From Chitinophagaceae bacterium T5-Br10_B2g13 (GTDB taxonomy: Bacteria > Bacteroidota > Rhodothermia > Balneolales > Balneolaceae): a stretch of 64,000 nt of DNA. Shown here in pieces: positions 3,303 to 18,048 of this stretch. The position numbers were made by a program, and so were the translations under genes. The notes under the pieces were generated by a model that was not told the DNA's origin, ran no database searches, and saw only the letters and a list, made by a program, of their open reading frames with translations. The stretch covers positions 1 through 64,000 of the forward strand of contig LKNA01000001.1 in assembly GCA_001564065.1 (NCBI GenBank), written 5' to 3'. The number at the start of each line of letters is the position of its first letter. Positions within the stretch are counted from its first letter, which is position 1.

Positions 3303-6300
3303 TTAAACCTTTTCTTTCTCCCCGACCATTATCAATTCCACTCGGTGAGTTTTACCGTCATTCAAAATTTTAATCTTCGCCATAATCTTATCCTGAGAGA
3401 ATTCTTCTCCATCCACTTGACCTGCCAGTTTACCGGACTCTAAACCATCCCGGTTTTCAATTTTAATAATGTACTCCGTTCCAATGTCATCAGGTTTGTA
3501 ACGTATTGTGTACGATTTCCAGGATTTCGAAATAGCCGGTTTCAGTATAATCTGTTTTCCCTCTATTCTGAACCCTAATACAGATTCCAGCATCACCCTG
3601 TACATCCATCCGCCTGATCCGGTGTACCAGGTCCAACCGCCCATACCGGTCAGGGGTGGTTCGCCATATACATCAGCTGCAACCACATAAGGTTCCACTT
3701 TGTACTGAAGGCATTTGTCAAATGTGGAAGCATGATTAATCGGGTTCACCATGTTAAGGTAGTTTACCGCCTTTTCACCTCTGCCGAGCTCTGCCATGGC
3801 TTTGATCAGCCAAAGTGCTGCGTGAGTATATTGACCGCCATTTTCCCGTACCCCGGGAATGTAACCTTTGATGTAGCCCGGATTTTTCTCGGTTTTGTCA
3901 AAAGGCGGGGTCAACAGTCGAATAATTCCTTCCGGCTCCGATACCAGGTGATTTTCGGCTGACTGCAGTGCCTTTTGAGCGCGCTCATCCGTTGCAACGC
4001 CAGAAATAACCGCCCACGCCTGCGAAATAGCATCAATCTTACACTCCTCATTCTGCACTGATCCAAGCGGAGTACCGTCATCATAATACGCCCTCAGGTA
4101 CCACTCACCATCCCAGCCTGCATCATTCAACCTTTTTTTAAGTTCAGAGGCTGTTTTCTTATACCTCTCAGCACGGTTTGTATCATCCATTTTTTTACAG
4201 ATTGGAATAAAACGATCCAGCGTGATATAGATGAAGAATCCCAGCCAAACGCTTTCACCTCTGCCCTCTTCACCCACGCGATTCATCCCGTCATTCCAGT
4301 CTCCGGCACCTATTAAAGGAAGTCCGTGTTGCCCAAACTGCAGTGAAATATCGATCGCTTTACAGCAGTGCTCATAAAGAGATCCGGTTTTTTCTGTTAC
4401 CTGTGGTGTGAGATACACTTCATGTTCATCATCCTCCAGGGAACGGGCAGTTATGTAAGAAATCTCTTCATTCAGAATATCACGGTCGCCCGTAACACGT
4501 ATGTAGTGATCTGTTACGTATGGCAGCCAGAGACGGTCATCTGTAATTTTAGACCGGATCCCTCTGCCCGTTGGCGGATGCCACCAGTGTAGCACATCAC
4601 CCTCTTCAAACTGTTTGGATGCATGTAGTAAAATCTGCGTTCTGGTTAGAGCAGGATCCACATAAAGCAGTGCCATGGAGTCCTGGAGCTGATCCCGAAA
4701 TCCAAATGCACCTCCGGCCTGGTAGTATGCCGTTCGTCCCCACATTCTGCTGGACAAATTTTGATAGGTCAGCCAGCCATTCACCATCAAATCTATCGAC
4801 TTATCCGGAGTTTCAACCTGTACTCTTCCGATCTTGTCTGACCAGAAATCTATCACAGAACTTAGTGCCGACTCCGCCTTTTCAACATCCCTGTATTCAG
4901 AAAGAACTTTTTTCGCCTCCACTTCACTTTTTGCTTCTCCGTCGAAAAAGTAGATGACTCTTTTTTCTCCCTTTTCCAGATTTAAGTCAAACTGAAGTGC
5001 CGCGCAGGGATCTGAACCTACATCGATCCGGTTATCGAGGTTCTTATTTTTGCCAACTGCTATCGGATTATTCAGAGATCGATTCCGGCCAATAAAATTC
5101 TCTCTTTCAGTGGTGTAGAAAACTTCATCTTCATAATCAGGCATATAAACTCCTGAGTATGCCACCCTTCCGGCAAACTCGTTGTTATAGAAATTTCTCG
5201 AAAACAGGGATTGCATTTCATTCATAAAATGGGAGGTGACATATCTCGATGAGCTCTTTCGGCTCACTCCCAAAACCGTATCCAGATACCTGAAAAGTGA
5301 AAGTGAGCACGACTTCCTGTCAACATTCTCAATCGTCAAACGGCTGATTTTTACTGAGTCGCTTAAGGGCACAAAATGTGTAAGCTCTTGCTTCAGGCCT
5401 GCGCTTTTGTGATGAAATGTGGTATGTCCGAACCCGTGAACTGCTTCATAGTTGCCATTTCCGGGAACGGGGCCGGGTGCCGGAGACCAGAAAATTTTAC
5501 GTTCATTATCCCGTATAAAGAATGCTTCAGAATGCGTATCTAAAACCGGATCATTCGACCAGGTCGTGATTTTATTCTCCCGGCTGTTTTCACTCCAGGT
5601 ATATCCTGCCCCGCGCTCGGAAACGAGTGTACCGAAATCCGGGTTCGAAAGTATGTTTACCCAGGGTGCCGGTGGAAAACTGTGCCGGTTGGTTTCCGGG
5701 TCAATGTTTATCTGAATCCGGTACTCTTTTCCATCTTCACTGAATCCTCCAAAGCCGTTGAAAAAACGCAAATTCTCTTCAGGTTTCCGTTCATCAATCT
5801 CATCGTTGAACTCCACGGGTACCGGTTTATAATCATTTTCTACTCCCTCATTCATCCACGATTGCGTATCCACTCCCTGAAGAATCAGATCTTCTCTGGC
5901 CGGAAGTTTATGCCTGAACTGTGCATGCGCTACTGTTTGAACCAACATTAAATCCTCAGGCGGTATTTTATCGGTTCGATGGACGAATATTCCACCGTAC
6001 TTGTTAATCAACCCTCTTTCGGATGATGATTCAATGAGCTGATAAATTGCTTCCTGAACTTCATCAGCGTAACTCGGAGCATGATCGTTTAGAATAAGAA
6101 GTTCACTTTGCAACCCCCGCTGTCTCCAGAAAGCGTGAGCCTTCAGCATCTTTTTGAGGTGTTTAATCTGATCTGTCTGATCTATTTTGAAGACCACCAA
6201 AGGTAAATCCCCCGAGATTCCATAAGCCCAGAGGTCCTGCTGCTTCTTGCGATTTTGCATCAAAATCGAAGAGTCAGCTCTGAATTTTGAATTTGAGTAG

Positions 6301-9300
6301 ATGAGATGAGAAGCTAATTTTTGGAAATAATGAGCCTCCCTTGAATTAATTCCAATATGATTCAGCTCCACAGAACTGTAAACATCAGCCAGGTCAAAAG
6401 CTCTGAAAACAGATAGAGAATTATCATACATATCGGCCATATGAATAGCCTCCTGTTCGGATTTGGCATATCCCAACCCAAATGCGAAAATAACTTTTTC
6501 ACCCGGACCCAGTTTAATTTTCTTTCGAAGGCTCATGATCGGATCGGATACATTTCCCAGCGAGCAATCCAGTCTTGAATCTGAATCCATTGCCTTCGGA
6601 TGGCTTAGTGTCCTGCCTCTCCCGATAAACTTTGATCGCTCCGTTTCATATTGAAGCGGATCCGTTAAATTATCCGAATCATCCCCTGCAAAGGTATGAA
6701 CCATCCACATTGGAGATTCTTTATCACTTCGGGGTCTGCGTTTGGCAAGCAGAGCATGATGTTCAGCCAGGTATTCTGTTTGAATAAACAGCTTGGAAAA
6801 TGCAGGATGTGCATTGTGATCCTTACTCTGATTCAATACAACTTCTGCATAGCTGGTTACCTCAAGTTCCCTCTCTTTTTCTGAGTAGTTGGTCAATGTA
6901 ATTTTTCGAAGCTCGATTGGGTAGTCCGGCGATACACAAACTTCCGTTGTTGTCTCAATCCACTCATCCACTCTTGAGGTCACCATTTTACCGTTGTGGA
7001 ACCAGCTGTCGTATCGATCAGGCTTCCGCTTTACGGGCTGATGACCGGCCGACCAGAATTTACCGCTCTTCAAATCTTTGATATAGACAAATACCCCCAG
7101 TGGGTCAACGGTTGGATCAGGTTCCCACCCGTTTAGAGTTACCCCATTACACTGAGAGCTGCCCGTACCGGTGTGGGTCAGAAGAGTCGAGAAATTACCG
7201 TTTGAGAGGATATGAAGTCGAGGCGGGCTCGTATCCAACTCGCCCATTCCGGCATGCTCCACAATTTTCTGGACTGCTTCCTGTTCGCCCGGCTCCAGCT
7301 CCACTTCAATTGGATGAGGCTCTTTAATGGGCACTCCCCTTGGAACCCGCTCTTGCAAAATTAACTCACAGCCCTGGATTCTCGGATCTGCATGAAAGTA
7401 TTCCTGAATCAGGTTGTCGTTCATAAAGTTTTCCAGGGCAATCAATCCCATCCCATGATGGTGTACCATATACGACTTAACCACTTTGTGAGATTCCCCA
7501 CTGTTCAGCCGGGACGGTGTAAAGTCAAGCGCATCATAAAAACCGTGCAGCCCAAACCCACCCTTTCTCTCAATTCTCTTAAGGTTTTCTATGGATGAAA
7601 ACGGATCAACGGACAGCGACAACAGCGAGGCATACGGAGCCACTACATACTCCTCCGCAAGGCCACGCTTCAGACCCAGCCCTGGAGCTCCAAACGCCCG
7701 ATACTGATAGTGCATATCGATATTTAAATTGTAGTAGGCGCTTTCAGAAAACCCCCAGGGTTTCTTATTCTTTTTGCCATATTCCTGCTGCCATTTCACA
7801 ACATTCTCATAGGTGTGATCCATCAGCGTTTCGGGTACGCTTTTCATGAATAAAAGCGGCATCAGATATTCAAACATGGTACCTCCCCAGGAGAGCAAAA
7901 TCTCATTACGGCTCAAACTTGTCAGTCGTCTGCTCAATCTGAACCAGTGCTCTACCGGGATGTCGCCTTTGGCAATCGCTATGTAGGATGCGATCCTGGC
8001 TTCACTGGCAAGCAGGTCGTACGTACTCTTATCGAGTTGTGCACGATCAACATTGTACCCGATAGTGAACAGCCCTCTTTTCTTCAAATAGAGAAACGTA
8101 AAATCCATCTCTTCGATCAGCTTTTCACAAATCGATATAATATTATCTGTTTGTTTCTTCCACCGATTCAGGAGGAGGATACATTGAGATTTGTTCTCCC
8201 GATTCTGGGCATACTCATCCAGCATCTTAGGCGAATAGTCTGACAGGTCCCGGTCCGAATCCATACTCAAACATTTCCATTCAGCAATTGATTTTTCCAA
8301 CTGATGGAGCGGACTCTCAACCCAGTAGCGTAAATCCTGCATGTATTGATCATCGTAATGACTTCCCAATGGCAGCAAGTCGACAGCACTTAAGCGAGCG
8401 GCATCCTCTTTAATTTCACGAAGCAGATCGAGTCCGGACTTTTCACTCTGTTTAATTTTATCGAGCATAATCTTTGTGACCAATTGTATTTCCCTAAAGC
8501 AAGGATTAGCCTGTGGACAATCATTCTCAAGCTCATCAAAAATATTCTTGACGGTACGAACCGTGTCTTTTAAGCCCTGCCAGAATTTTGAGTTTAAAGC
8601 CTGTTCTTCCGAAGCTGCTCTGATACCCTCTTTTGCCACAATCAATCCTGCTGCTAAATTTCCGGAATCAACCGTAGATACATACCTCGGGTTTAATACA
8701 TCCCCCATTGTTGTTTGATACCAATTGAAAAAATGCCCCTTATAGCGCTCCAGTTTGTTTATAGAGAGCAGGGTATTCTCCATTCTATCTAACAGCTCAC
8801 TGTAAGTAATGTATCCACGGTTATATGCAACCAGGTTTGCAGTCAAGGCCAGACCAATATTCGTGGGAGACGTTCTGTCTACCGGAGATAGTGGTGGATC
8901 TACCTGGAAATTATCCGGCGGGAGCCAGGAGTTTTTGTCTGTAACCATTCGTTCAAAAAAGAACCAGGTTCGCCTGCTATACTCTCTGAGTAGTAAATAA
9001 TCTGACTTATCGACTTTGGCTTGGGTAGATTTAGTCGGTTGACTTATATACCAAACGTAAAACGGAGCACCGGACCAAAGCACAAAAAATGGAGCCAGTG
9101 TCCACAAGTAACCGGGATTCGTGTTGAGTGCACCCACAAGTATCCACACACCCAAAATGACAGGAAGCAGCATCATTCTAACATAAGCAGAGAGTGAGTT
9201 CGGGCTATTGGACTCTGTTTGAGATGCCGTTGTCCACTCCAGTAAATTTCTCTTCGAAATACTGAGGCGGTAAAGTGTTCTGAAAACCGCATCCAGTTGC

Positions 9301-12005
9301 ACCAAAGCCTGGTGCGGTAAAACAATAACAGTCGATAAAGCCTGAACCGTATTAATTTTAAGATTGTCTTGAACTTTTTCCCAATAAAGCTTCCAGCGAA
9401 CTCTTGCCGGCCGATTAACAATATCAGTTGAGAGACTCACATAAATCGGGAATGCAAGTATTCCGAATGCAAAGAGCGTCCAAAGCCAGGCAGGCCCCGG
9501 CAGAAAAAACCAACCGGACACAAAAAAGAGTGTCAGAAAAAATGGATTTAGTGATCTTCGTAAATTGTCAAAAATCTTCCACCTTGAAAGGATATTGATT
9601 CGGTTTCTCTCTTTCCCGTTTTGGGTGGGTACTCTTTTCAAAAGCCAGGCGGCAATTTGCCAGTCGCCGCGCGTCCAGCGATGACTTCTTTTGCTATAGC
9701 TTGCATATGTAAGCGGATAGTCGTCATACAATTCAATATCTGAAGCAAGCCCGGTTCTCAAATATGTACTTTCAATTAAATCGTGGGAAAGAATGCGGTT
9801 TTCCGGAAATCGATCATTTAAGACTTCATGGAAAGCTCTCACGTCATAAATACCCTTTCCTGTAAAAACGGCTTCTCCGGCCAGATCCTGGTAAATATCA
9901 GATACAGCCGTTGAATAGGGATCCAAACCTACGTTTCCTGAAAATATTCTGGAAAACCATGTTTTCCGGGCCGAAGACGGAGGAATGGAAATTCTGGGTT
10001 GAATAATGGCATATCCCGACGTGATTCTCTTTTTCTCCCGGTTCAAAAATGCGCGGTTCAGCGGATGAGATATGGTACTGACTAACTTGATGGCACTATC
10101 GGGCGGTAACTTTGTATCCGAATCTAATGTTATGACATAGTTTACATTTTCCCGCTGAATCGATTCAGTGAAATCACCTGCCATAAACGAGTACGTTGTA
10201 TCTGTATCCGGATCACAAAGAAGCTGGTTAAACTCTTCCAGTTTGCCCCTTTTTCGCTCCCAACCCATCCATACTCCTTCTGCTTCGTTCCAGAGGCGAT
10301 CTCTGTGCAGTACAAAAAATTTATCCCCATAAGCTGAAGAGTACTTCTCATTCAACTCCAAAATAGCTTTTTTGGCTTCATCCAGAATCTCCTGGTCTTT
10401 CGGTTCTGTTTTATTAACCGAATCTTTAAAATCTGAAAGCAGAGCAAACTGCAGTCCCGGGTGCGGGTTTGCCAAAGATCTTATTTCAAGCCGATTTATT
10501 TGATCTCTCACATCTTCGGCTGAAGAAAACATTGTAGGTACCACAACCATTGTTCTGGATGAATCGGGAATAGTGTCCCTAAAATCCATTTTATTCAACT
10601 TTCGGGGCGGAAGCAGAAATACAAAAAATCGATTAACGGCCGAAACGGACAGATCAAGCGCCGGGAAAAATGAAACCAATACTACCGAAGTAGCAATGAA
10701 CAGAGATTCACTAATAGCGTCCGTTACAAACCATAAAATCACCATCAGTACTATAGTATGCAGGATAATGGTGGCTATATACCAAAAAGGCCGGTTTTCG
10801 AGTCCTTTCTGCAATCTTTCGCGATATGGCATGCGATACCCCAGAATGGAAGCAAACTTTTTGTATCCCTCGCCTACCAGATAGTACCCGATATGTTCTT
10901 TTGTTGCAGACCGATTATAAAGTGAGTCCGAACCTTCATCACTCTCCTCATTCAAACGGCTTTGATCTTCTGCCAAGATCAATACCTGTTCTGCAACATT
11001 CGTTTCAGACTTTTCTGAGTATCGGCTTAAACGCTCAACAACACGGCGATAACGATCCCGTGTTTCAAAATCCATTTTGGAATAGGCCCCATAGGGATCA
11101 AGTCGAAGGATCTGATCTACAATAGAACACTCTTCAACAAAATCAGACCAATCTGTTTCCGAAGATTCACGAAGTGTAATAACAGCATTTTGGATACTGA
11201 CCTGGAGACGGGACTGCCGCTGTGCATCAGTGCGCTTGGCTTCATCAGCCGTAACATCCAGCTGTTTAAATCTGTAATTGAACCATCTCTTCTGTTCTTC
11301 CTGCAGAAGGCCGCTCTGCTGCAACTGGTTATAAAGTTCAATCAGTACGGGAACAATATCATCCGTATTCCTATACTTTTCTATCCAATCAGACATGGAG
11401 TTAATCAGCTTTCCGGGTTCGTGAATATCACTTTCACTCTTTTTACTGATCAGATCATTGACTTCTCTCCAAATCTTTTTCCTGTCTAAAATTCGGGAAG
11501 CTTTTTCTGAAAGGTTCTGAACCAGAATTAACCGGATCATAATAGGTATAGCCCATATCTCCCCCAACTTCAGAGTTTCATGCTGCTGATACTGCTGCAC
11601 ATAATGAATTAATACCCCCTCATCCACAAGGTTGTCGGTATGTAAGAGGTAGTTTAGTATCAGCTCATAAACTCTGGGCAAACCCTCATGTTCGCCGGTG
11701 GAAAGTGCGGGAAGTCGTTTTTGAAATTCTCGTGGAAAATCCTCTTCAACCTGAACAATCTGCTCCTGAATGATGTAAAAATTGTCGATTAACCACTCTG
11801 CAGCTGTCGAAAGGTCCCGGTTCTGTTTGGCCAGACCGGACAACACCCGATAGGCATCTACCAATACCTTTTTGGAGTCTTCAATAATGGGTTTAACCGG
11901 ACGCATTCTTTTCGAGGAGTCTGATACGGAATGTATCTCTGCCAGATTTGCTGCACTCTCTTTTAAATAGCTAATATTATAGGATATCTTGGATTCCTGA
12001 TCCAT
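3303..12005 (-). CDS. Cyclic beta-1,2-glucan synthase family (NdvB/ChvB-like; GT plus glycoamylase-like plus GH94 modules)
   Basis: ORF 2900 aa; GT motifs (NYVITLDSDTKLP, RSHRWTRGDWQ), multiple TM segments, glycoamylase-like (GGTMFEYLMPLLF), GH94 signature GAGDWNDGMNRVG. Confidence 0.93.
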   Translation of the reverse strand: MDQESKISYNISYLKESAANLAEIHSVSDSSKRMRPVKPIIEDSKKVLVDAYRVLSGLAKQNRDLSTAAEWLIDNFYIIQEQIVQVEEDFPREFQKRLPALSTGEHEGLPRVYELILNYLLHTDNLVDEGVLIHYVQQYQQHETLKLGEIWAIPIMIRLILVQNLSEKASRILDRKKIWREVNDLISKKSESDIHEPGKLINSMSDWIEKYRNTDDIVPVLIELYNQLQQSGLLQEEQKRWFNYRFKQLDVTADEAKRTDAQRQSRLQVSIQNAVITLRESSETDWSDFVEECSIVDQILRLDPYGAYSKMDFETRDRYRRVVERLSRYSEKSETNVAEQVLILAEDQSRLNEESDEGSDSLYNRSATKEHIGYYLVGEGYKKFASILGYRMPYRERLQKGLENRPFWYIATIILHTIVLMVILWFVTDAISESLFIATSVVLVSFFPALDLSVSAVNRFFVFLLPPRKLNKMDFRDTIPDSSRTMVVVPTMFSSAEDVRDQINRLEIRSLANPHPGLQFALLSDFKDSVNKTEPKDQEILDEAKKAILELNEKYSSAYGDKFFVLHRDRLWNEAEGVWMGWERKRGKLEEFNQLLCDPDTDTTYSFMAGDFTESIQRENVNYVITLDSDTKLPPDSAIKLVSTISHPLNRAFLNREKKRITSGYAIIQPRISIPPSSARKTWFSRIFSGNVGLDPYSTAVSDIYQDLAGEAVFTGKGIYDVRAFHEVLNDRFPENRILSHDLIESTYLRTGLASDIELYDDYPLTYASYSKRSHRWTRGDWQIAAWLLKRVPTQNGKERNRINILSRWKIFDNLRRSLNPFFLTLFFVSGWFFLPGPAWLWTLFAFGILAFPIYVSLSTDIVNRPARVRWKLYWEKVQDNLKINTVQALSTVIVLPHQALVQLDAVFRTLYRLSISKRNLLEWTTASQTESNSPNSLSAYVRMMLLPVILGVWILVGALNTNPGYLWTLAPFFVLWSGAPFYVWYISQPTKSTQAKVDKSDYLLLREYSRRTWFFFERMVTDKNSWLPPDNFQVDPPLSPVDRTSPTNIGLALTANLVAYNRGYITYSELLDRMENTLLSINKLERYKGHFFNWYQTTMGDVLNPRYVSTVDSGNLAAGLIVAKEGIRAASEEQALNSKFWQGLKDTVRTVKNIFDELENDCPQANPCFREIQLVTKIMLDKIKQSEKSGLDLLREIKEDAARLSAVDLLPLGSHYDDQYMQDLRYWVESPLHQLEKSIAEWKCLSMDSDRDLSDYSPKMLDEYAQNRENKSQCILLLNRWKKQTDNIISICEKLIEEMDFTFLYLKKRGLFTIGYNVDRAQLDKSTYDLLASEARIASYIAIAKGDIPVEHWFRLSRRLTSLSRNEILLSWGGTMFEYLMPLLFMKSVPETLMDHTYENVVKWQQEYGKKNKKPWGFSESAYYNLNIDMHYQYRAFGAPGLGLKRGLAEEYVVAPYASLLSLSVDPFSSIENLKRIERKGGFGLHGFYDALDFTPSRLNSGESHKVVKSYMVHHHGMGLIALENFMNDNLIQEYFHADPRIQGCELILQERVPRGVPIKEPHPIEVELEPGEQEAVQKIVEHAGMGELDTSPPRLHILSNGNFSTLLTHTGTGSSQCNGVTLNGWEPDPTVDPLGVFVYIKDLKSGKFWSAGHQPVKRKPDRYDSWFHNGKMVTSRVDEWIETTTEVCVSPDYPIELRKITLTNYSEKERELEVTSYAEVVLNQSKDHNAHPAFSKLFIQTEYLAEHHALLAKRRPRSDKESPMWMVHTFAGDDSDNLTDPLQYETERSKFIGRGRTLSHPKAMDSDSRLDCSLGNVSDPIMSLRKKIKLGPGEKVIFAFGLGYAKSEQEAIHMADMYDNSLSVFRAFDLADVYSSVELNHIGINSREAHYFQKLASHLIYSNSKFRADSSILMQNRKKQQDLWAYGISGDLPLVVFKIDQTDQIKHLKKMLKAHAFWRQRGLQSELLILNDHAPSYADEVQEAIYQLIESSSERGLINKYGGIFVHRTDKIPPEDLMLVQTVAHAQFRHKLPAREDLILQGVDTQSWMNEGVENDYKPVPVEFNDEIDERKPEENLRFFNGFGGFSEDGKEYRIQINIDPETNRHSFPPAPWVNILSNPDFGTLVSERGAGYTWSENSRENKITTWSNDPVLDTHSEAFFIRDNERKIFWSPAPGPVPGNGNYEAVHGFGHTTFHHKSAGLKQELTHFVPLSDSVKISRLTIENVDRKSCSLSLFRYLDTVLGVSRKSSSRYVTSHFMNEMQSLFSRNFYNNEFAGRVAYSGVYMPDYEDEVFYTTERENFIGRNRSLNNPIAVGKNKNLDNRIDVGSDPCAALQFDLNLEKGEKRVIYFFDGEAKSEVEAKKVLSEYRDVEKAESALSSVIDFWSDKIGRVQVETPDKSIDLMVNGWLTYQNLSSRMWGRTAYYQAGGAFGFRDQLQDSMALLYVDPALTRTQILLHASKQFEEGDVLHWWHPPTGRGIRSKITDDRLWLPYVTDHYIRVTGDRDILNEEISYITARSLEDDEHEVYLTPQVTEKTGSLYEHCCKAIDISLQFGQHGLPLIGAGDWNDGMNRVGEEGRGESVWLGFFIYITLDRFIPICKKMDDTNRAERYKKTASELKKRLNDAGWDGEWYLRAYYDDGTPLGSVQNEECKIDAISQAWAVISGVATDERAQKALQSAENHLVSEPEGIIRLLTPPFDKTEKNPGYIKGYIPGVRENGGQYTHAALWLIKAMAELGRGEKAVNYLNMVNPINHASTFDKCLQYKVEPYVVAADVYGEPPLTGMGGWTWYTGSGGWMYRVMLESVLGFRIEGKQIILKPAISKSWKSYTIRYKPDDIGTEYIIKIENRDGLESGKLAGQVDGEEFSQDKIMAKIKILNDGKTHRVELIMVGEKEKV

Positions 12006-14039: not shown

Positions 14040-14461
14040 GATTTATTATCACAAATGGAAGTTCATCACATTTTCAGCCGATCCATACAGCAGATAACCC
14101 TCTCTTTTGTAGTATAAGTTTATACTCTTTTGTACTGTTTTTCCTTGGTGGTAGTCCGGCGGGTACCTATTCCAACTACAATACTTCGTTAAACCTAATC
14201 AGGCATGGTATAACCGGTTTTACAGATAGGCATTCGTTTTTTCTCCTGTTAGTTCAAAGGGAAAATCATACATAATAAGACGTCTAAATCAGGTTTTGGG
14301 AAACCATTATTTGATAGTCTGTTTATCAACCTCCAAATAAGGTGACTGTACCCTGTGGTGATAATACTACAAGCAATTAACAGCAAATCTTACACGGCGT
14401 TATCACCTAAGTGTTTATACTACTATTGAGTTCTTTGAGCAAATGAGAGTGACTAGATTTA

Positions 14462-14650
14462 GGGCACAGTTTAATTCGTTACTACGGTAACAAGTTGAAC
14501 ATATCAGGAAATAGTCCGCTGATAAATCAATGTATCTTCAACAAAAGGAGTGCATGATTGTGCCCCGGTCTGAATTTGTGGTTAATGTTGAGCAAGCAAG
14601 TGACCCGAAAACAGCCAGAGAGAAAACAAGAGAGGTTCGGTAAAGAAACT
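14462..14650 (+). ncRNA. RNA element A, 5' structured module (unidentified class)
   Basis: Closing helix GGGCACA(14462-14468)/TGTGCCC(14559-14565); hairpin GTTAC-TACG-GTAAC (14478-14491); hairpin ATCAG-GAAATAGTCCG-CTGAT (14503-14523); CGGTC/GACCCG helix downstream. Homologous to 16294-16469. Confidence 0.65.
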
Positions 14651-14751
14651 CGAAGCCAGCAGTTAGGGGTGCCCTGGATCCAACAGGACTGAGAAAAACC
14701 CTCTGAACTTGAATCCCGATCATACGGGGCGTAAGGAAATTGTTGGCTTCG
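14651..14751 (+). ncRNA. TPP (Thi-box) riboswitch-like aptamer, element A
   Basis: P1 CGAAGCCAGCA/TGTTGGCTTCG; AGGGGTG...AACCCT (P2); CCTG/CAGG (P3); ACTGAGA junction; AACTTGAA...CCCG-ATCATA-CGGG...GCGTAAGGAAA (P4/P5). Same topology as the TPP aptamer. Confidence 0.8.
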
Positions 14752-14772
14752 ATATCTAATTAAGAGAGAGTA

Positions 14773-14809
14773 GCCCGGCAATCAATAGTCCTGATTGCCG
14801 GGCTTTTTT
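14773..14809 (+). terminator. Rho-independent terminator 21 nt after TPP-like aptamer A
   Basis: GCCCGGCAATCA-atagtcc-TGATTGCCGGGC followed by TTTTTT. Confidence 0.88.
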
Positions 14810-15844: not shown

Positions 15845-16096
15845 ATGAGACCGTACGAAAGAAGAATAAAATTAGTCCTGGACGTACCGAAGAAAACGGG
15901 CGCTTATCATAAGTTAATGGAGCAATGGGAGAATGAAGGTGGAGCAATTAAAGTCAATCAAAGCAGTGAAATAATCCCGGAAGCAAATATACCATTTCGA
16001 GAAGGCGAAGCATTCCAGGTTGTGAGGGGATCCATCGATTTCGAGGAAGAAGGAGTCTACTACATTGTTGATATCATGAAAGTAGATATCGAGTAA
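15845..16096 (+). CDS. Small protein of unknown function (83 aa)
   Basis: ATG preceded by GGAGAG-type purine-rich sequence; compact acidic ORF. Confidence 0.6.
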   Translation: MRPYERRIKLVLDVPKKTGAYHKLMEQWENEGGAIKVNQSSEIIPEANIPFREGEAFQVVRGSIDFEEEGVYYIVDIMKVDIE

Positions 16097-16293
16097 TAGC
16101 CACCATTCAATAATCCATTAAAAGAGTAATTAACCGAACTCGGGCTGGAAATAAAACAGAAAGTCTTATTCTTCGGGTGGCTTTCACTGTGATTCAAGAA
16201 AATACTACAACTTGATTTTCTAAAGAACTACAAGGTTTTTAATAACTGTTTTTATACTGCAGTAGAAGTTATTGACATACTGTAAAAAATTAA

Positions 16294-16469
16294 GAGCACA
16301 GAGTCATTCTTATGCTACGGCTGAGAGTTATTCAGACCAGAAAAATTATCCGCTGGCTCTTTTTAAATCCTTCAAACGATTCGAAAAGTGTGCTCCGGTT
16401 AACCATTTTCCAATTCCTGAAAATTGGTTGTAAACGGTGATTTATTAAGCCGATTACAAAAAATATTGT
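16294..16469 (+). ncRNA. RNA element B, 5' structured module (homolog of element A)
   Basis: Closing helix GAGCACA(16294-16300)/TGTGCTC(16389-16395); CTACGG at 16315-16320; hairpin CCAG-AAAAATTATCCG-CTGG (16337-16356); CCGG helix start at 16395. Aligns to 14462-14650. Confidence 0.65.
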
Positions 16470-16565
16470 CGGAGTCTTGGCGGGAGTGTCTTGATTCGTT
16501 CAAGTCTGAGATACATTCTTATAACTTGAAGCAGTTAATACTGACGAAAGGAGACTGAGACTCCG
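16470..16565 (+). ncRNA. TPP (Thi-box) riboswitch-like aptamer, element B
   Basis: P1 CGGAGTCT/AGACTCCG; GAGTGT...ACATTC (P2); CTTGA-TTCGT-TCAAG (P3); TCTGAGAT junction; AACTTGAA-GCAGT-TAAT-ACTGACGAAAGG (P4/P5). Confidence 0.82.
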
Positions 16566-16584
16566 ATCAATTTCAATCAAAAAG

Positions 16585-16628
16585 AATAACCCCGTTGTGA
16601 TTCAATTCGCAACGGGGTTATTTATTAT
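16585..16628 (+). terminator. Terminator 19 nt after TPP-like aptamer B (may be bidirectional with hsp20)
   Basis: AATAACCCCGTTG...CAACGGGGTTATT stem followed by TATTATTA. Confidence 0.8.
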
Positions 16629-16711: not shown

Positions 16712-17158
16712 TTAATTTACCTTGATAGATTTCGGTTTTACAGTTTCCGCTTTTGGAACTACCAATTTCAAAACACCATCTTTAAATGTAGCTTGAATCT
16801 CCTCATCCTTAATGGTATCCGATAGAGTAAATGATCGGTAAAAGCTTCCACGATATCGCTCCTGACGCAGAAAATCTTTCTTCTCCTCTTTCGATTCGGT
16901 TTCTCTTTCACCGGTTATCGTAATACGTCCATCCTGAAAATTCACTTTGATATCTTTTTTATCCATACCGGGAATATCCATCTTAATCACATACTCCTTC
17001 TCATCTTCTGATATATCCACGCTTGGCGACCACATTCTTAAATCTGATCCCCCATTCTCTTTTCTCCAGGAAAATGGAACCAAATCATCAAAAAAGTGAT
17101 CCATCTCTTTTCTAAGCATATCAATAGCTCTGGGTTCTTCTCGTTTGATCATTTTCAT
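16712..17158 (-). CDS. Hsp20/alpha-crystallin small heat-shock protein
   Basis: ORF 148 aa; VDISEDEKEYVIKMDIPGMDKKDIKVNFQDGRITITGERE...RSFTLSDTI...DGVLKLVVPK. Confidence 0.95.
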   Translation of the reverse strand: MKMIKREEPRAIDMLRKEMDHFFDDLVPFSWRKENGGSDLRMWSPSVDISEDEKEYVIKMDIPGMDKKDIKVNFQDGRITITGERETESKEEKKDFLRQERYRGSFYRSFTLSDTIKDEEIQATFKDGVLKLVVPKAETVKPKSIKVN

Positions 17159-17382: not shown

Positions 17383-18048
17383 TTATAGCTTATGCTCGCT
17401 TTCTACCCATTTTACCGCATGGAATATCATTTCTGTAGAGTTTTTAAAATCCATCTTCTCCTTGATGCGAGACCGGTATGTTTCCACAGTTTTAGATGCA
17501 AGATGAAGCTGCTCGGCAATTTCACCGCTGCTCTTGCCACGACCAATTAATTCAAACACTTCAAGTTCCCGATCACTTAAAATATCAATCGATGAAACTG
17601 ATCCTTCTTTTTTCCCATGCATGGCATTCATCAGCAGTTTCTCGTTCAACGAGTCACTCACATAGATTCCGCCATTTAGAATTTTCCGTACAGCTTTCAC
17701 CAGCTTTTCACTCGGCTCAAACTTCATAATGTACCCCTTTGCCCCGGCTCTAAGCGCTCTCTCCCCATAAAGAGACTCTTCGTGGCGGGAAACAACCAGG
17801 ATCTTCATGTCGGGATCCTGAAAAATAATATTCTTAACCAGCTCTATCCCATTCATTCCGGGAAGTGACACATCCACCAGCAGCAGATCCAGTTTATCTT
17901 TATCCAAAATTTCCAGTACATCCTCAGCCTTTTCACACTGATAAGCCACTTCCAGATCCGGTTCCATTTCCAGCGTACTGGCAAGTCCTTTTCTCATCAT
18001 AGGATGATCGTCAACAATTAAAACTCTCTTCTTGAATGGATTATTCAT
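17383..18048 (-). CDS. NarL/LuxR-family response regulator
   Basis: ORF 221 aa; VLIVDDHPMMRKGL, LLLVDVSLPGMNGIEL, LSDRELEVFELIGRGKSSGEIAEQLHLASKTVETYRSRIKEKM. Confidence 0.95.
   Translation of the reverse strand: MNNPFKKRVLIVDDHPMMRKGLASTLEMEPDLEVAYQCEKAEDVLEILDKDKLDLLLVDVSLPGMNGIELVKNIIFQDPDMKILVVSRHEESLYGERALRAGAKGYIMKFEPSEKLVKAVRKILNGGIYVSDSLNEKLLMNAMHGKKEGSVSSIDILSDRELEVFELIGRGKSSGEIAEQLHLASKTVETYRSRIKEKMDFKNSTEMIFHAVKWVESEHKL

Follow-up and report, generated by a model that had tools for sequence, protein, structure and literature searches.

Here we describe RNA B, a predicted two-domain RNA of Chitinophagaceae bacterium T5-Br10_B2g13 (Bacteroidota; Balneolaceae), and its sister, RNA A, which lie on the plus strand of a 64-kb window (the whole stretch analysed, positions 1 to 64,000 of contig LKNA01000001.1). 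The RNAs were compared with the Rfam model RF00059 (THI element), with R1, an aptamer model built from nine members of the family, and with R2, a covariance model of the 5' domain. Relatives with both domains are called composite, those with the 5' domain alone stand-alone; loci are given as L numbers and genera as g numbers. The features are as follows.

14367–14421, plus strand: putative promoter of RNA A, CTACA/CTTACA boxes and TATACT (box pattern scan)
14461–14573, plus strand: 5' domain of RNA A (R2, 90.8 bits, E 9.2e-17)
14650–14752, plus strand: TPP-type aptamer of RNA A with a 15-pair P1 (RF00059, 53.4 bits; R1, 98.2 bits)
14753–14809, plus strand: linker AATTAAGAGAGAG and intrinsic terminator of RNA A (sequence, aligned relatives)
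16205–16258, plus strand: putative promoter of RNA B with a pair of CTACA boxes (spacing 23 nt) and a -10-like TATACT (box pattern scan)
16272–16292, plus strand: 5' leader of RNA B with TTGACATACTG (TTGACAT stands upstream of 14 of the 28 composite copies; 0.4 expected)
16293–16403, plus strand: 5' domain of RNA B, multi-way junction with pseudoknot (R2, 79.9 bits, E 1.5e-14; covariation in 27 relatives)
16404–16468, plus strand: spacer between the domains of RNA B; small hairpin at about 16404–16429 (fold of 16265–16625)
16469–16566, plus strand: aptamer B, the TPP-type 3' domain of RNA B, with a long P1 (UCGGAGUCU/AGACUCCGA and inner pairs; RF00059, 47.3 bits; R1, 76.5 bits)
16567–16582, plus strand: A-rich linker between P1 and terminator of RNA B, AAGAGAGAG in many relatives (sequence, aligned relatives)
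16583–16628, plus strand: intrinsic terminator of RNA B, a 17-bp stem (16583–16599/16606–16622) and a U-rich tail
16715–17158, minus strand: hsp20, convergent neighbour and no cis target (HSP20, PF00011, E 5.6e-26)

Between the two RNAs, an 83-aa protein without a Pfam match is encoded (15845–16093), and L237, L220 and L225 have small open reading frames resembling it close to their composite RNAs.

The 3' domain of RNA B aligned end to end with the full RF00059 model (model positions 1–105; 16472–16569, 47.3 bits, E 3.8e-6), and the match of aptamer A spans 14655–14754 (53.4 bits, E 1.2e-7). Both fail the gathering cut-off of the family (54.3 bits); a scan of the window at that threshold returned no Rfam match, and TPP appeared in E-value mode only. 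The cut-off is passed by the relatives L204 (65.1 bits) and L201 (60.5 bits), and the genome holds one more TPP element, a canonical one (C98:105417, 68.5 bits). Judged from the RF00059 alignment and from covariation in relatives, aptamer B has the full P1–P5 secondary structure including the L5 loop, together with the CUGAGA junction and G60, C77 and G78; folded with its terminator, it gave a z-score of -7.5, a value equalled by none of 200 shuffles. P1 measures about 12 bp in B and 15 pairs in A, B is the further diverged of the two, and extra bases occur in J4/5 and J5/4 of A and several relatives. The original prediction had described an orphan TPP-like aptamer with an immediate terminator, facing hsp20, and its helices lie where it placed them (P1 CGGAGTCT/AGACTCCG, P2 GAGTGT/ACATTC, P3 CTTGA/TCAAG, P5 CAGT/ACTG, CTGAGAT junction), as do the terminator stem and the convergent gene; A and B do share AACUUGAA, and the CUU/AAG pairing of P4 is compensatory. 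The unit it delimited, aptamer plus terminator, was correctly recognised but is only the 3' half of a two-domain RNA, which has a 5' domain and a putative promoter further upstream.

In RNA B, the 5' domain comprises a closing stem (GAGCACA/UGUGCUC), H1, H2 and a variable H3, and the H2 loop (CCG) pairs with CGG just 3' of the closing stem to form a pseudoknot. The conserved unit in relatives consists of the closing stem, two hairpins, of which the first mostly has a UACG cap and the second an A-rich loop with CCG at its end, then a variable third hairpin, and the CGG just outside the stem. The closing stem covaries (GGGCACA/UGUGCCC, UUGCACA/UGUGCAA, UAGCACA/UGUGCUA), and in a plain MAFFT alignment that took no account of structure (27 sequences), 25 of the 28 named pairs of the domain were changed on both sides (shuffle mean 16.1; 0/500), with a covariation score of 0.511 as against at most 0.164 when the partners were slid. 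One position of the pseudoknot takes the pair types GC, UA, AU and UG, and the loop–tail pairing also occurs as CCU/AGG, CCA/UGG and CUG/CAG. Of 30 further copies, which were found with a model that did not contain the pseudoknot, 29 have a standard outermost core pair and all have standard, mostly invariant pairs at the other two core positions; the two outer pseudoknot positions are weak. The nested stems were recovered independently by RNAalifold and are also present in the MFE structure of the complete RNA B (16265–16625), and the small hairpin of the spacer recurs in several relatives. Searches of the window and 11 related loci gave no Rfam match for the 5' domain at E ≤ 5 to 10, TPP being the sole Rfam match. 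The 5' domain is a covariation-supported RNA fold that has no Rfam entry and merits a family of its own.

Of 129 genomes of the order, 48 contain R2 matches; these number 79, fall without exception in the family of the window and are distributed over 13 genera; a sample of 396 genomes of the phylum likewise yielded matches in this family only. Low-scoring RF00059 matches in other genomes of the genus are alike in their AACUUGA, long P1 and purine-rich linker, and most also have a terminator; R1 detected further members in genera g3, g12 and g17, to which loci of the 5' domain add g4 and g13. A and B are preceded by the 5' domain, as are almost all of some 30 related orphans, with 30 of 31 non-canonical TPP-like matches located 19–80 nt after an R2 domain. 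In the aptamer, 22 of 29 pairs were changed on both sides, a count that is biased by the use of an alignment fitted to the model (A7); the MAFFT alignment (A6) shifted P1 by one column in some rows.

Composite copies run in the order leader (often with UUGACAU), 5' domain, 19–80 nt, TPP-type aptamer and terminator. In many g3 copies, a U-run directly follows P1, and GAGAGAG then often lies in the 5' leader and not in the 3' linker. This motif is present in about half of the composite loci vs 2% of random windows, in none of the stand-alone copies that end in a U-run within 3 nt, and not in the linker of B itself. The stand-alone form is an RNA of about 115 nt with a U-run 0–3 nt after the domain; many copies have TTGACA and a TAATTA-like box ahead of it, and tandem arrangements are common (three copies in L274, at least three in L276, two each in L273, L275 and L277). 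At the stand-alone loci L274, L275, L277, L273 and L288, the 60 nt upstream contain a strongly conserved TTGTGGATAA or TTGTGGAAAA, which by eye resembles a DnaA box; TTGACA and a TAATTA-type -10 come next.

RNA B is predicted to start near 16264–16266. Paired CTACA/CTTACA boxes, 20–25 nt apart, stand ahead of 14 of the 28 composite copies vs 0.36% of random windows (and ahead of 1 of 19 stand-alone copies), and pairs followed 22–32 nt on by TATA[ACT]T were found at 10 of the 28 composite loci vs 0.07% of random windows, an enrichment that is descriptive because the boxes were picked after the same upstream regions had been viewed. The combined signature occurs exactly twice in the window, before A and before B. 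CTACA/CTTACA boxes are also present upstream of hsp20, at a different spacing, and a shared regulator may be involved, perhaps the adjacent PAS-kinase/LuxR-type pair (LuxR-type regulator at 17386–18048). TTGACA was rejected as the -35 element of composite copies: at most loci that have it, it lies between the TATACT-like box and the 5' domain, 12–28 nt ahead of the latter. It is a candidate -35 in stand-alone copies only.

The neighbours of composite copies are mostly stress genes (HSP20, universal stress proteins, a cation P-type ATPase, an Na/Ca exchanger, flavodoxin, dodecin, PPDK), and further neighbours encode citrate synthase, DUF2267, a DksA-type zinc finger, a phosphoribosyltransferase and a GH94 protein. 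The stress island of the window also contains a gene for a 2900-aa glycosyltransferase/GH94 protein (3306–12005), and similar-looking reading frames lie near the composite RNAs L206, L229, L231 and L234.

We consider it probable that aptamer B belongs, as its 3' module, to a free-standing, stress-linked two-domain RNA of about 350 nt (approximately 16265–16625) that acts in trans and is tuned by TPP, and not a leader; the hint of an sRNA in the original prediction gains support as a reading. The predicted promoter signature and predicted terminator are features of an autonomous unit. RNA B would be transcribed under stress conditions and act in trans via its 5' domain, with the purine-rich linker or the leader as a possible contact site; TPP bound to the 3' module would tune the amount of the RNA, its half-life or its partner binding, and thiamine or energy status would thereby feed into the stress programme. 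Because the P1 of about 12 bp and the terminator do not overlap, TPP should not switch termination in B, and ligand-dependent stability or partner binding is more likely than ligand-controlled termination. The GAGAGAG element is one lead toward a trans target. In the window, the linker complement CTCTCTCTT is confined to the antisense strand of A and one other site, and GAGAGAG was rejected as an antisense element within the window, where its complement lies once on a possible target strand (33095), not above chance.

In some relatives, the aptamer itself is altered. The ligand pocket is damaged in 7 of 31 relatives; four of these, the g3 copies L226, L229, L230 and L231 (aptamers at approximately 4964–5148), are devoid of G60, C77 and G78 and thus of the pyrophosphate pocket, while UGAGA and the long P1 are kept. 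The aptamer cores of L286 and of the second copy of L279 are degenerate. In the composite RNA of L271 (3700–4110, minus strand), an unrelated insert within a GGCTT/AAGCC stem takes the place of the TPP-type core, and the AAGAGAGAG linker and terminator are kept after the 5' domain and the insert, which makes it a module swap. Because of the seven damaged pockets and the different insert of L271, TPP sensing would not be essential in every copy, and it is probably not universal in the family.

The same copies speak for structural reuse, in which the TPP fold persists as a rigid 3' scaffold for protection or termination of the RNA and its ligand binding has fallen out of use. P1 and the terminator remain in the four g3 copies without a pocket, which are candidates for a pure scaffold role or a changed ligand; the degenerate cores and the replaced insert point in the same direction, and a P1 of 12–15 bp would be stable without ligand. 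However, all ten highly conserved positions of TPP aptamers (U39, G40, A41, G42, A43, U59, G60, C77, G78 and A80; PMC3764141) are kept in 24 of the 31 copies, from several genera, and in B itself they persist despite many compensatory changes in the helices. We regard a pure scaffold as possible but rather unlikely for B.

The original prediction had proposed that the U-to-A change at the end of the shared motif could alter ligand specificity, which would make B a variant riboswitch for another ligand (e.g. thiamine, TMP or HMP compounds). Apart from the four pocketless g3 copies with an intact UGAGA, the extra bases in J4/5 and J5/4 of A and several relatives would fit such a change. The base changes in question, however, are frequent in bona fide TPP aptamers, and positions 58 and 62 are not among the ten highly conserved ones (PMC3764141), every one of which is present in B. 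AACUUGA with a compensating AAGG is widespread: the pattern CTGAGA..AACTTGA..CGNAAGGA matched at least 117 stretches in GTDB, and among the first 20 matches listed, 17 coincide with an RF00059 match (coordinates compared by hand), which in 13 cases exceeds the gathering score. The genus has 29 gene-linked TPP aptamers, of which 21 have A at base 62, 6 have U and 2 have C; among AACUUGA-bearing TPP matches from other taxa, 5 of 16 have A there. On these pattern matches and base counts, a specificity change via positions 58 and 62 was rejected, as the original prediction's own refuting condition foresaw, and another ligand is improbable altogether. Since AACUUGA is widespread, base 62 is commonly A and the conserved positions are kept, the 3' domain of RNA B is best treated, by its structure and conserved positions, as a TPP-type aptamer and a putative binder of TPP.

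Known TPP aptamers lie, with few exceptions, within gene leaders or introns, and RF00059 homology with a terminator downstream is the usual layout of an attenuator. That B is an ordinary cis-acting TPP riboswitch for a neighbouring gene is nevertheless strongly disfavoured. The nearest downstream gene is convergent at A, at B and at about 20 of the 28 loci (counted by inspection), and a leader function is therefore excluded at these loci; at B, there is no sense gene to control via an expression platform, and regulation of hsp20 or another gene in cis was rejected on the same grounds. The separate terminator does not overlap P1, and a second conserved domain stands ahead of the aptamer. The gene-linked TPP riboswitches of the genus differ in having AACCUGA, a short P1 and a gene for a TonB-type receptor or another protein just downstream. 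As side observations, L037 (3981–4296) contains two TPP elements on opposite strands, back to back and about 125 nt apart, and in L041 (3994–4891), as also in L044, a TPP aptamer directly precedes a gene with a methyltransferase domain, which is not a recognisable thiamine gene.

The least credible explanation is that B is a decaying duplicate of a thiamine-gene riboswitch (a pseudo-element), for which its score below the gathering cut-off and its divergence beyond that of A might speak, but which is contradicted by the compensatory pairs in both domains, by the promoter signature and terminator of its own and by the linkage to the 5' domain across many species.

The free-standing, two-domain RNA that we favour resembles the THI element in the full-length match of its 3' domain and in the junction, helices and pocket bases listed above, and differs from it in the score of B just under the cut-off, the P1 of 12–15 bp in the family, the lack of a cis gene and the position behind another structured RNA domain. 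Its nearest functional analogues would be trans-acting riboswitch-containing RNAs. EutX/Rli55 is an AdoCbl riboswitch-containing trans-acting sRNA (PMC5821096; PMC8383071), likewise a free-standing RNA with a metabolite aptamer; trans action of RNA B would extend the likeness. It has another aptamer, however, and occurs in other bacteria; no EutV/ANTAR site is known in the RNA B family, whose non-aptamer part is located 5', forms a junction with a pseudoknot and also exists alone. Termination of EutX is stabilised by AdoCbl (PMC5821096), and the g3 copies are like EutX in that the aptamer stem is the terminator; in these relatives, where P1 and the U-run form the terminator, ligand binding could set the 3' end. 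The SAM riboswitches SreA and SreB of Listeria act as sRNAs (PMC8383071) and are similar as riboswitch RNAs with a possible trans role, but SreA is the terminated leader of a downstream gene (PMC8383071), whereas RNA B has no downstream gene to lead. The open-licence literature contained no description of TPP aptamers in free-standing RNAs of this kind, nor of this ncRNA family of the clade.

The chances are about even, in our estimate, that these RNAs constitute a new ncRNA family, in which a junction/pseudoknot sRNA that exists alone in many genomes of one bacterial family has captured a TPP aptamer in several genera as an exchangeable 3' sensor, so that a trans-acting RNA of a stress regulon would read the TPP level. 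The family offers natural experiments in the form of stand-alone copies, intact aptamers, aptamers with pocket loss and a swapped insert, and with these the role of the module can be tested directly. If true, a TPP aptamer fused to an independent stress-linked RNA would widen the roles of riboswitch aptamers and tie thiamine status to stress survival.
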